DNA of 44,207 nt from Myxococcales bacterium (GTDB lineage: Bacteria > Myxococcota_A > Polyangia > Polyangiales > Polyangiaceae), in contig CANJCO010000041.1 of assembly GCA_947473045.1 (NCBI GenBank), positions 1 through 44,207 on the forward strand. The letters run 5' to 3'. The first letter of the stretch is position 1; each line of letters opens with the position of its first letter. Positions 18,064 through 41,619 of this stretch are shown one piece after another. Below the pieces are notes generated by a model. That model made no database searches. It was not told the origin of the DNA and saw only the letters and a list, made by a program, of their open reading frames with translations. Made by a program: the position numbers and the translations under genes.

Positions 18064-18082
18064 GATGGCCGCGGAGACCCCT

Positions 18083-18234
18083 TAGCAGGGTGTTCGAAAA
18101 ACACCCTGCTAGGAATTGGCGAAGCCAATTGCGTGGGGTGGGGACCGGCGAAAAACCGCGTTTTTCGGGGCGGGGAGGTGCATACCTCCCCGAGATGAAA
18201 AGCTAGCAGGCGGCTGCTTCAACACCCTGTTAGC
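18083..18234. repeat. Five-hairpin structured repeat, copy 1
   Basis: A 152-bp intergenic element made of consecutive inverted repeats: stem 1 18083-18094/18100-18111 (12 bp, TAGCAGGGTGTT); stem 2 18114-18120/18124-18130 (AATTGGC); stem 3 18149-18156/18160-18167 (CGAAAAAC); stem 4 18171-18179/18184-18192 (CGGGGAGGT); stem 5 18202-18210/18226-18234 (one G-U). Its two ends also pair with each other (18083-18094 with 18221-18232, 11 of 12). About 113 bp of it match 38993-39105 with only about four differences. It lies between the stop of the lipoprotein gene at 18268 and the start of the M50 gene. Likely a MITE/REP-type element that can act as a transcript-end structure. Confidence 0.85.
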
Positions 18235-19567: not shown

Positions 19568-19643
19568 GGGCTGATAGCTCAGTCGGTAGAGCTGCGGACT
19601 TTTAATCCGTAGGTCGCGGGTTCGAGTCCCGCTCGGCCCACCA
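19568..19643 (+). tRNA. tRNA-Lys (anticodon UUU)
   Basis: The 76-base cloverleaf has acceptor arms GGGCTGA and TCGGCCC (one U-G pair), D-arm GCTC...GAGC, anticodon stem CGGAC/ATCCG-type pairing around the loop CTTTTAA with TTT as anticodon, and T-arm GCGGGTTCGAGTCCCGC. The CCA end is encoded (19641-19643). It decodes AAA and, by wobble, AAG. It is a single gene with no neighbouring tRNA. No integrated element follows it, although tRNA 3' ends are common attachment sites. Confidence 0.97.
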
Positions 19644-38908: not shown

Positions 38909-38965
38909 TTGGATTGCCCAACGCTACAACGGGTGGGCGACTGCTGGCGAACAATCGCGGCCTGC

Positions 38966-39116
38966 TATCAGGGTGTTTGAAAAACACCCTGCCAGGAATT
39001 GGCGAAGCCAATTGCGTGGGGTGGGGACCGGCGAAAAAACGCGTTTTTCGGGGCGGGGAGGTGCATACCTCCCCGAGCTGAAAGGCTAGCAGGCCGCTGC
39101 TTCAACGGCCTGCTAG
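38966..39116. repeat. Five-hairpin structured repeat, copy 2
   Basis: A 151-bp copy in the same orientation as 18083-18234, with about four differences over the shared 113-bp core. Stem 1 is CAGGGTGTTT/AAACACCCTG (38969-38978/38982-38991). Stems 2-4 are conserved. Stem 5 is now perfect over 11 bp (CTAGCAGGCCG, 39086-39096, with 39106-39116), where copy 1 had a weaker version. The 10-base CGGCCTGCTA occurs at 38958-38967 and 39106-39115, flanking the core as a direct repeat. The TAG stop of the gene at 39113 lies in the right arm of stem 5. Confidence 0.85.
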
Positions 39117-41059
39117 TGGCACGATCCGCCTGCGTTCGACCCGGTCGCGCAAAGCTGGGGCGGTAAGTACAGCTGAAATCGGCCCGCGCCGTCGGTCAGA
39201 GCCCGACCCACGAGGCGCGACGCCAGCAGCGCGCCGTCAGCCTCGCGGGCGGGCGCTTGCGCGGCGTCACGCGGCAACATGTACGCGCTGACGATCGCCC
39301 GCGGGATCGGATTGTTCGAATCGTCCGTAAGGCGCCACGGAACAGCCAGCGGTGGCGCGACGATCAGGTCAGGCAAGTCGATGTCCGTTTGTACGACGGG
39401 ATGCTTGAGGCTCACCTGCCACGGAAAACGACTGCCCTCGGCAGGGCGCACCGTGATGTCGACTTCACCCGGATCGACGGCCAGATCGAAGCGCCCCTGC
39501 TCGTCGATTGCAGATGCGGTCTCGCGCGGCCACGACAGCGAGGCCGTCTCGACATCGCGAGCGATGAGATCGACGTAGCGATCCGCAGACGGGGTCGCGA
39601 CGACGATCCCCCCCGCAACAGGCCGGCCGTCGAAGGTCACGGCGCGACCGCGCACGTGCGCACGAACGCCGACGGCGAGCGAGCGACCACGCTGCACCGC
39701 GGGGGTCGAAGCGACGGACGTCGCCTTGCGCGTTCGCGCGAGTGCCGGATCGCGCGGCGTAATCCAAACCGTGTAGTTTCGACCCGGCGGCAACAGCACG
39801 GAGTAGGCGCCACCTTCGTCGGTCTGCGCGAAGACGCGGTAGGTCAGGTCGTTGGCAAACGGGTCGGCTTCGCCTTCGGCTTCTACGTTGCTGTCGACAT
39901 CGAGACCGACGTCGAACACCAGCGCGGCCGGCGTCGGTACGCCCTGCGCGACGACCAGACCCTCCACGCGAACGGGCGCGGGCACCTTCGGATAAACGGG
40001 ATCCTGAACGTCGCCTCCGACGTAACCTACGACGAGACTCGGAAGCGCCACGGCGTCATCGGGCGGCGTCAGCAACAGCGACAGCTGAGTCTCTTCGGGA
40101 TCCTTCGCGCTGCGGGCAACATAGGGCGCGAAGGTCTCGCCGCTCGCCCCGGCCAGCGTCATCACATTCGAGATGCGATGTCCGCCCGGCCACGAGACGA
40201 CCTGCGCCCGAAAACCAGCCAGCGAAGGCGCCCCGGGCCTGGCGCCGAAGGTGACCTTTCGGGAGCTGACGGAGGATAGCGCGGTGTCGAGCCGCGCAGT
40301 GTCCGGGAGCGGACGCCGCAAGTCGGCGACGGTCTCGGCCGCGCCGCTGACGCTCGGGCTGGCGACGAACGGCGGGAACGCGCTGTCGAAAGGAGCAAGC
40401 GGTCGCAGCGAAAACCGGTAGTCGACGAGCCCGTCCTGCGCGCTCGTTCCCTGCAAAAAAACCTCGTAGCCGATCGCCGCGCCGCCGCCCGGCCCCGGCG
40501 CCCCGCCAACAGGGGTGGACGTCGCTTCGGTCGGTGCGATTGGAATGCCCCGAAACAGCGCTGGCAGCGCCACGGCATCGCTCACGGCGTCCCGCCACCG
40601 GGGTTCGAACTGAGCGACCACCGGAAGCGTGGTGGCTCCGGCGCAGCTGGCCGGATCGCATAATCCCGACGGTGGCCAAAGTTGCGTTGCCGCAGCATCG
40701 CCCACCTGCAGAACTCCGCGGGCACCCGACCGCGAAGGCATGGGCAGGCACGTTCCGGCGCACGACGCCGGCGCCCTGCTGTGCAGCGACGTCACTTGCG
40801 AGGGAGAGAGCGCGAAGATCATCCCCGGCGCGCGGAAGTTCCCAACCGGGATTTGCACGACGAGCGAAAAGTTGGTCGGCGCGACATCGGTGACGCACGC
40901 TCCCGAAATGCAGCGGGCGGGCGCCAGCGAACCCGGCTCCGCGAGCGGGCAGGAATCAGCGCACACGTTGACAGGCGCCGATATTCCGCCCGTAGCGGGC
41001 GCCGCTTCGCAGGCGAGCACAACTACTGCGACGCCGGCCAGGCCCCTGACGAGCCTCAC
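39113..41059 (-). CDS. Large lipoprotein with carboxypeptidase-regulatory-like domains
   Basis: The GTG at 41059 overlaps the stop of the upstream gene as GTGA and gives a lipoprotein signal (MRLVRGLAGVAVVVLAC); the longer frame has no signal at its start. The product is 648 aa. The first part has cysteines in CADSCPLAEPG and CISGACVTD. From about 370 on there are beta domains of the carboxypeptidase-regulatory type: VRVEGLVVAQGVPTPAALVF, GGAYSVLLPPGRNYTVWI, VRGRAVTFDGRPVAGGIV. It ends with a further such unit and a cysteine pair. Probably exposed on the cell surface. The coding end lies in the structured repeat. Confidence 0.78.
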   Translation of the reverse strand: MRLVRGLAGVAVVVLACEAAPATGGISAPVNVCADSCPLAEPGSLAPARCISGACVTDVAPTNFSLVVQIPVGNFRAPGMIFALSPSQVTSLHSRAPASCAGTCLPMPSRSGARGVLQVGDAAATQLWPPSGLCDPASCAGATTLPVVAQFEPRWRDAVSDAVALPALFRGIPIAPTEATSTPVGGAPGPGGGAAIGYEVFLQGTSAQDGLVDYRFSLRPLAPFDSAFPPFVASPSVSGAAETVADLRRPLPDTARLDTALSSVSSRKVTFGARPGAPSLAGFRAQVVSWPGGHRISNVMTLAGASGETFAPYVARSAKDPEETQLSLLLTPPDDAVALPSLVVGYVGGDVQDPVYPKVPAPVRVEGLVVAQGVPTPAALVFDVGLDVDSNVEAEGEADPFANDLTYRVFAQTDEGGAYSVLLPPGRNYTVWITPRDPALARTRKATSVASTPAVQRGRSLAVGVRAHVRGRAVTFDGRPVAGGIVVATPSADRYVDLIARDVETASLSWPRETASAIDEQGRFDLAVDPGEVDITVRPAEGSRFPWQVSLKHPVVQTDIDLPDLIVAPPLAVPWRLTDDSNNPIPRAIVSAYMLPRDAAQAPAREADGALLASRLVGRALTDGAGRFQLYLPPQLCATGSNAGGSCH

Positions 41060-41619
41060 TCGATGGCTCCGTCGAGCGAAGACGCGGCATCGATGAATGC
41101 GGCGGCGTCGGGCGCGCCTCCCTCGAATCCGGGGCAGCCCGCGTAGGCGCCGCGCGGCTGGTAGAACCACGTCTCGACATCGCCGTCGTTGGCTTTCGGC
41201 GTCTGATTGACCTCGAATTCATAGGCTACGAACAGCGTGACGGTGTGGCACGCACGCGGATCTCCGAGGAGCGTGTTCGATAGCGAAAAATCAACGAACC
41301 GTCGCGTCGACGTGCCCGCTATCGGAGGGAGATCCGTGTCGGGACGGCCCGCGATCAGAGCCTGATCGTGGCCGTAGTCGACGAACACCCGCCACCGAAG
41401 CGTCTCATCCGCCTCCGCCTCGACCGGCACCACAAAGCTCGTCGACTCCGCGAGATCTGTTAGGACGACGCTCGACGGCGGCGAAACCGATGCGGCGACA
41501 ATGGACGGGCGCCGCGGCGGCGGCACGGGCAGCTCGGGCAGCGGCTCAACGAGCACGCACGCGGCCATCGCGGCAAGCGCAGAGCCAAGGCACACCGCGG
41601 CGACGAGACGTCGATGCAT
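41056..41619 (-). CDS. Hypothetical lipoprotein
   Basis: Starting at 41619 gives the lipoprotein signal MHRRLVAAVCLGSALAAMAAC and a 187-aa product; an ATG at 41637 is possible. The mature protein is beta-rich with a Pro-rich start (LPELPVPPPRRP), an Ig-like core (LRWRVFVDYGHD, FVDFSLSNTLLG, TVTLFVAYEFEV) and an acidic Ala/Asp tail. It lies four bases after the upstream TPR gene and overlaps the next lipoprotein by four bases, so three genes share a transcript. No family is recognised. Confidence 0.75.
   Translation of the reverse strand: MHRRLVAAVCLGSALAAMAACVLVEPLPELPVPPPRRPSIVAASVSPPSSVVLTDLAESTSFVVPVEAEADETLRWRVFVDYGHDQALIAGRPDTDLPPIAGTSTRRFVDFSLSNTLLGDPRACHTVTLFVAYEFEVNQTPKANDGDVETWFYQPRGAYAGCPGFEGGAPDAAAFIDAASSLDGAIE

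Follow-up and report, generated by a model that had tools for sequence, protein, structure and literature searches.

A hairpin repeat dispersed through a Polyangiaceae genome behaves as a MITE family, probably moved by IS5-type transposases

The 44,207-nucleotide stretch of Myxococcales DNA analysed here (the window) contains, in two places, a repeat of about 150 nt made of consecutive hairpins, which raises the question of whether these are two genes for a folded RNA or two copies of something that moves. Both copies lie where an earlier note on this DNA had placed them, and they align with each other over 151 nt at 93% identity (Table 1). Each folds far more stably than its dinucleotide shuffles (z of -7.2 for copy 1 and -6.3 for copy 2), and the reading of the repeat as five consecutive hairpins was borne out by the folded consensus of 72 copies from the host genome, which consists of a head, stems A, B and C and a tail. 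The note had further stated that stems 1 and 5 still pair in both copies despite their differences, which is contradicted by the sequences and fold of the copies. In copy 1, stem 5, the tail (CAGGCGG...CACCCTG), lacks its upper part, and this hairpin does not form in the fold; in copy 2 the sequence has lost the base of stem 1, the head (CTAT versus CCAG). The terminal arms of copy 1 (18083-18112 and 18203-18232) are 73% complementary. Both copies do follow minus-strand genes, as had been described: copy 1 ends about 34 nt past the end of a minus-strand gene for a PT-repeat protein, and copy 2 contributes the TAG stop codon to a minus-strand ORF of 685 aa that ends at 39113. A tRNA gene (Rfam) is located at 19568-19640 of the window.

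Table 1. Parts of the two repeat copies and their flanks, in window coordinates.
Feature	Copy	Position	Strand	Basis or remark
Left flank, YTAR site TTAG	1	18082..18085	.	sequence; flank statistics
Element, 144 nt, MITE	1	18086..18229	+	
Head hairpin = left terminal palindrome, CAGGGTGTT..AACACCCTG	1	18086..18108	+	fold; common to IS ends
Stem A, AATTGGC-GAA-GCCAATT	1	18114..18130	+	fold of copy and consensus
Unpaired G-rich linker, GCGTGGGGTGGGGA	1	18131..18144	+	near-invariant in relatives
Stem B	1	18145..18170	+	covaries between lineages
Stem C, CGGGGAGGT-GCAT-ACCTCCCCG	1	18171..18192	+	covaries between lineages
Tail hairpin = right terminal palindrome, upper stem broken	1	18203..18229	+	
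Right flank, YTAR site TTAG	1	18230..18233	.	same as left flank
Left flank, CTAT	2	38965..38968	.	one base off YTAR
Element, 144 nt	2	38969..39112	+	
Right flank, YTAR site CTAG	2	39113..39116	.	TAG stop of minus-strand ORF 39113-41170

The host genome carries far more than these two copies. We searched this Polyangiaceae genome (G000; 5.15 Mb in 138 contigs) with a 34-nt core pattern at up to three mismatches and obtained 143 matches (77 forward and 66 reverse; copies were counted as loci, with double counting possible for those at contig ends), whereas the reversed control pattern gave none. The earlier note had made its case depend on further copies, and these were found both in the whole genome and in related genomes. 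The element is 141-144 nt long, dispersed and without coding capacity. One identical core is present in 32 of the 72 aligned copies, a homogeneous young subfamily that marks a young expansion in this genome. The element is mobile DNA, at about 143 genomic places, and not a pair of RNA genes. Tandem copies have a CTAG junction in common. Because many contigs start or stop within a copy (for example C7, C19, C23, C59, C60, positions 1-147), the element itself fragments the assembly, and the family is a main cause of its fragmentation. The gene pair around copy 2, encoding the 685-aa protein and a TerB-like protein, is retained in two relatives (G047 and G010) with a short spacer and no element; this comparison, which is not site-precise, is consistent with insertion after divergence. 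Solo terminal hairpins without the core, which are REP-like and match the element ends exactly or closely, also occur (L076/L300 in G039, L075 in G031, L304 and L305 in G000), and some copies have internal duplications or short insertions within stem B or the core (L330 at 1068-1306, L341, L318 and L320).

The ends and flanks of the element point to a family of transposases. Its head and tail hairpins are palindromes that start with CAGG and end with CCTG, and the flanks in the host genome are mostly CTAG, TTAG or CTAA, that is, YTAR, a motif at which IS5 insertion is documented (PMC10359306). Left and right tetranucleotides were identical in 17 of 44 host-genome copies compared with 9.2 in shuffles (p = 0.0016), and in 20 of 50 compared with 10.2 expected in a wider set (p = 0.0003), both p values being a test of a YTAR hypothesis fixed in advance. 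Since 4 bp did not stand out when every offset and length was scanned without bias, the duplication stands only as a test of that prior hypothesis; it is also partial, with many left and right flanks that differ. No enrichment was found for an inverted relation between left and right tetranucleotides, and complementarity between the inner and outer tetranucleotides of the terminal hairpins was not significant in the host's own lineage.

The host genome contains an IS flanked by CTAA at left and right, with the end CAGGGTGTTGAAA and an open frame of 385 codons; its transposase matches NF033581 (NCBIfam IS5) at 273 bits against a cut-off of 140. The stretch this IS shares with the element comprises the 12-13 terminal bases only. 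Ends held in common with an autonomous IS, found here for the G000 lineage, are a mark of MITEs, as are shortness, non-coding sequence, many dispersed copies and terminal inverted repeats, all of which the element displays. In the relative G047, the remnant of a deleted IS has both ends near-identical to the two different hairpins of the element, with CTAG on each side, and encloses the C terminus of an IS5-type transposase. Several other Polyangiaceae ISs have CAGG[GC][CT]GTTGAA ends and CTAG flanks. A second IS in the host genome (L243, G000:C54, 144-1537), with ends CACTACTTTGACA and CTAG flanks, is inserted in the CTAG that terminates a copy of the element; here the element end itself serves as a landing site for an IS.

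Other lineages share the interior of the element. Further Polyangiaceae, among them Labilithrix MAGs and the MAG ACE_MYX3, also have the core, GTGGGGTGGGG-stem B-stem C. Of 184 genomes from the order Polyangiales, 37 were matched by a covariance model built on stems B and C (R1), often in multiple copies; when the phylum was sampled evenly, almost every R1 match fell within the same order, those beyond it being weak. The sequences of the terminal hairpins are unrelated from one lineage to another, the head-A-linker-B-C-tail architecture is mostly retained, and the G-rich linker is near-invariant among relatives. TGA-flanked lineages do not fit YTAR, and Labilithrix copies have no left/right flank duplication. 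Among DDE_Tnp_1 matches in the lineages with other ends (Labilithrix, g40, ACE_MYX3 and G157), we found no IS with matching ends; the DDE_Tnp_1 ISs of G014, G053, G054, G059, G075 and G157 were rejected as mobilisers, as none has ends that match the elements of its genome. A separate observation concerns the right ends of Labilithrix-type copies (G053 and G059; loci L306-L310, L067, L068, L085, L086 and L196), at which a tetranucleotide inside the foot of the tail hairpin is complementary to one just outside it. These pairs are copy-specific (CTGA/TCAG, CTAA/TTAG, CTAG/CTAG and CCAA/TTGG; 10 of 11, p = 0.0002) and occur without left/right duplication; they could reflect guide-like pairing or arm-to-arm repair.

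To locate where selection on the fold acts, we compared changes between lineages with changes within the host genome. Across 25 diverse cores, 98.4% of cells were paired and nine pairs had double changes, with 41 doubly changed cells compared with 9.9 in shuffles; sliding the alignment by 1-3 columns reduced the paired cells to 45-62%. Core stems B and C thus covary strongly between lineages, and the covariation among copies that the earlier note had asked for is present at this level. Within the host genome, rare substitutions fell at 0.012 per site in paired and 0.011 per site in unpaired positions, 73 of the rare stem changes broke a pair and 18 kept it, and no compensatory double changes were found among them. 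Selection at individual copies was not supported: rare mutations were as frequent in stems as outside them and mostly broke pairs. The proposal of selection on a folded form is supported between lineages, and not for individual copies, the two sites of the window included. Equal rates at paired and unpaired sites, together with broken pairs, indicate that the fold is upheld in the amplifying lineage and that copies decay after insertion. A fold kept by the lineage while its copies decay is what would be predicted for mobile DNA whose fold has a function, and not for a site-specific RNA gene.

Copies sit on stop codons far more often than chance would give. In the host genome, a stop codon was found at an end of 23 of 40 copies, compared with 9 of 57 (16%) gene-sparing YTAR sites (p = 2e-9), and a looser test based on ORFs only gave 44 of 93 compared with 70 of 251. 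In ACE_MYX3, 26 of 28 copies have, before their left end, a TGA that serves as the stop codon of an upstream ORF of 100 or more codons, compared with 19% of control TGAA sites; among the gene-sparing sites of this genome, stop codons make up 16% for TGA and 20% for CTGA. When ORFs were called by codon usage, the upstream sense gene ended at most one base from the element in most cases, and none of 24 ACE_MYX3 copies lay between divergent genes, compared with 32 of 143 in the background. Other TGA-type lineages had a TGA stop seat in 16 of 18 copies, and the precision in TGA lineages is striking. Orientation relative to genes is mixed in the host genome. Some autonomous ISs are also placed on stop codons, with the G047 remnant on a stop at each side. 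The element is not alone in this tendency, because REPs (GTAG) have been reported as suppliers of TAG stop codons too (PMC3733652). Insertions may survive because a duplicated YTAR or TGA target retains the stop and spares the gene, but gene sparing does not fully account for the rare use of non-stop intergenic sites.

Dispersal, shared ends, agreement of flanks and neutral decay are all observed in this family, and we infer that mobilisation in trans by IS5-family transposases is the best-supported mechanism for this lineage. The element is probably a non-autonomous MITE family with palindromic ends, moved in trans by an IS5-type transposase at YTAR, whose fold is needed by the amplifying copy. 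The transposase, a DDE enzyme of IS5 type working in trans, would recognise the CAGG[GC][CT]GTTGAA ends and would place the element at YTAR, with 4 bp duplicated. As YTAR includes TAG and TAA, the stop would be rebuilt on insertion, leaving the gene intact and allowing the insertion to survive. For the amplifying copy, the fold of the core (stems A-C with the GTGGGGTGGGG linker) may be required at one stage or another; candidate stages are the assembly of a complex on short DNA, a single strand folded at the fork and insulation from neighbouring transcription. At each individual site, the core would have no host function.

An IS5-type transposase offers no reason for a conserved interior, and this counts against the IS5 reading. 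It is possible, although we consider it unlikely, that another enzyme moves the element by recognising the core itself and targets gene ends, the IS5-like ends being secondary. The core is conserved across Polyangiales while the terminal hairpins change completely, stop codons are hit with precision in lineages whose ends are unrelated, and lineages with other ends yielded no matching IS, all of which favour such an enzyme. However, the ends and flanks of the host's lineage fit IS5, and reverse transcriptase (RVT_1) is absent from the host genome, on which ground a derivative of a retroelement or group II intron was rejected. A related and similarly doubtful proposal is that the core (stem A, the GTGGGGTGGGG linker, stems B and C and possibly an alternative G-quadruplex) is an independent module that swaps terminal hairpins between lineages and steers insertion to stop codons; if true, it would be an unrecognised form of gene-end-targeted mobility. 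The alternative G-quadruplex might form from four G4 runs in the core, the GGGGTGGGG/GGGGCGGGG runs are possible candidate stretches, and the two GGGGNGGGG blocks flanking stem B would also suit a quadruplex.

It seems improbable that the element is of REP/REPIN type and that a RAYT (Y1 tyrosine transposase) moves it in a folded, single-stranded DNA form. REPs, BIMEs and REPINs with RAYT (PMC3733652, PMC3116915) do resemble it in their hairpins, their tandem and solo units and their palindromic ends, in lying at the 3' ends of genes, in supplying TAG stops from GTAG (PMC3733652) and in the compensatory changes seen in REPINs (PMC3116915), and the TGA-flanked lineages appear one-sided. Against this, the host genome, which has the highest copy number seen, has no Y1_Tnp candidate, and a RAYT/REPIN origin was rejected on that account. 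In a family search, only about 6 of about 28 element carriers had a Y1_Tnp match compared with 38 of 108 genomes overall, and the Y1_Tnp of G014 is not bordered by element ends. Unlike these repeats, the element lacks the GTAG tag (GTAG occurs in 2 of 44 left flanks), has duplication-like flanks and consists of two different terminal hairpins and a 90-nt structured core. It works like a MITE, and on these tests it is not a REPIN.

We give equally little credence to a structured non-coding RNA or 3'-UTR element that is kept by selection at each site, acting in mRNA stability or in termination between convergent genes. The very stable fold, the seat on stop codons and the absence of ACE_MYX3 copies between divergent genes would agree with such a role, but the stems of individual copies mutate neutrally, the young subfamily is identical at many unrelated sites, orientation to genes in the host genome is mixed and an orthologous gene pair lacks the element. 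Rfam matched only the tRNA in the window and gave chance-level matches only for the element alone; a known RNA family was rejected, as no match to the element reached the gathering score. A plasmid-borne repeat was rejected on finding no match among 72,556 plasmids.

Among known repeats, ERIC (enterobacterial repetitive intergenic consensus) is a palindromic repeat of about 130-150 nt with a conserved interior. The element is like ERIC in size, palindromic form, conserved interior and a copy number of tens to hundreds, a likeness at the level of description; unlike ERIC, it has YTAR flanks and a link to IS5. ERIC has also been reported at the 3' ends of genes (PMC10969869). With IS-derived bacterial MITEs (PMC10969869), the element shares a short, non-coding sequence, terminal inverted repeats, intergenic position, IS-derived ends, stable stem-loops and possibly flank duplications that fade with age. 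It differs from them in being very GC-rich rather than AT-rich, in that each end is itself a hairpin, in combining changing ends with an interior conserved across genera, and in its precise stop-codon seat. IS5-family ISs (YTAR target, PMC10359306) have the same CAGG[GC][CT]GTTGAA ends and YTAR flanks, and some of them are likewise seated on stop codons; the element differs in having no transposase gene, and no likeness to the IS interior was noticed. Changing ends, a covarying interior and a stop-codon seat were not found together in the literature searched, in which few subscription journals were covered.

These findings add a mobile element family that extends across Polyangiales and has no match in Rfam or in the papers searched, and they account for the repeat that fragments the host assembly. 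The family provides a clean case of a MITE whose interior is conserved as structure while single copies decay. Its seat on stop codons turns targeting versus survival into a testable question, and is a way in which mobile DNA can fill a dense genome with its genes unbroken.
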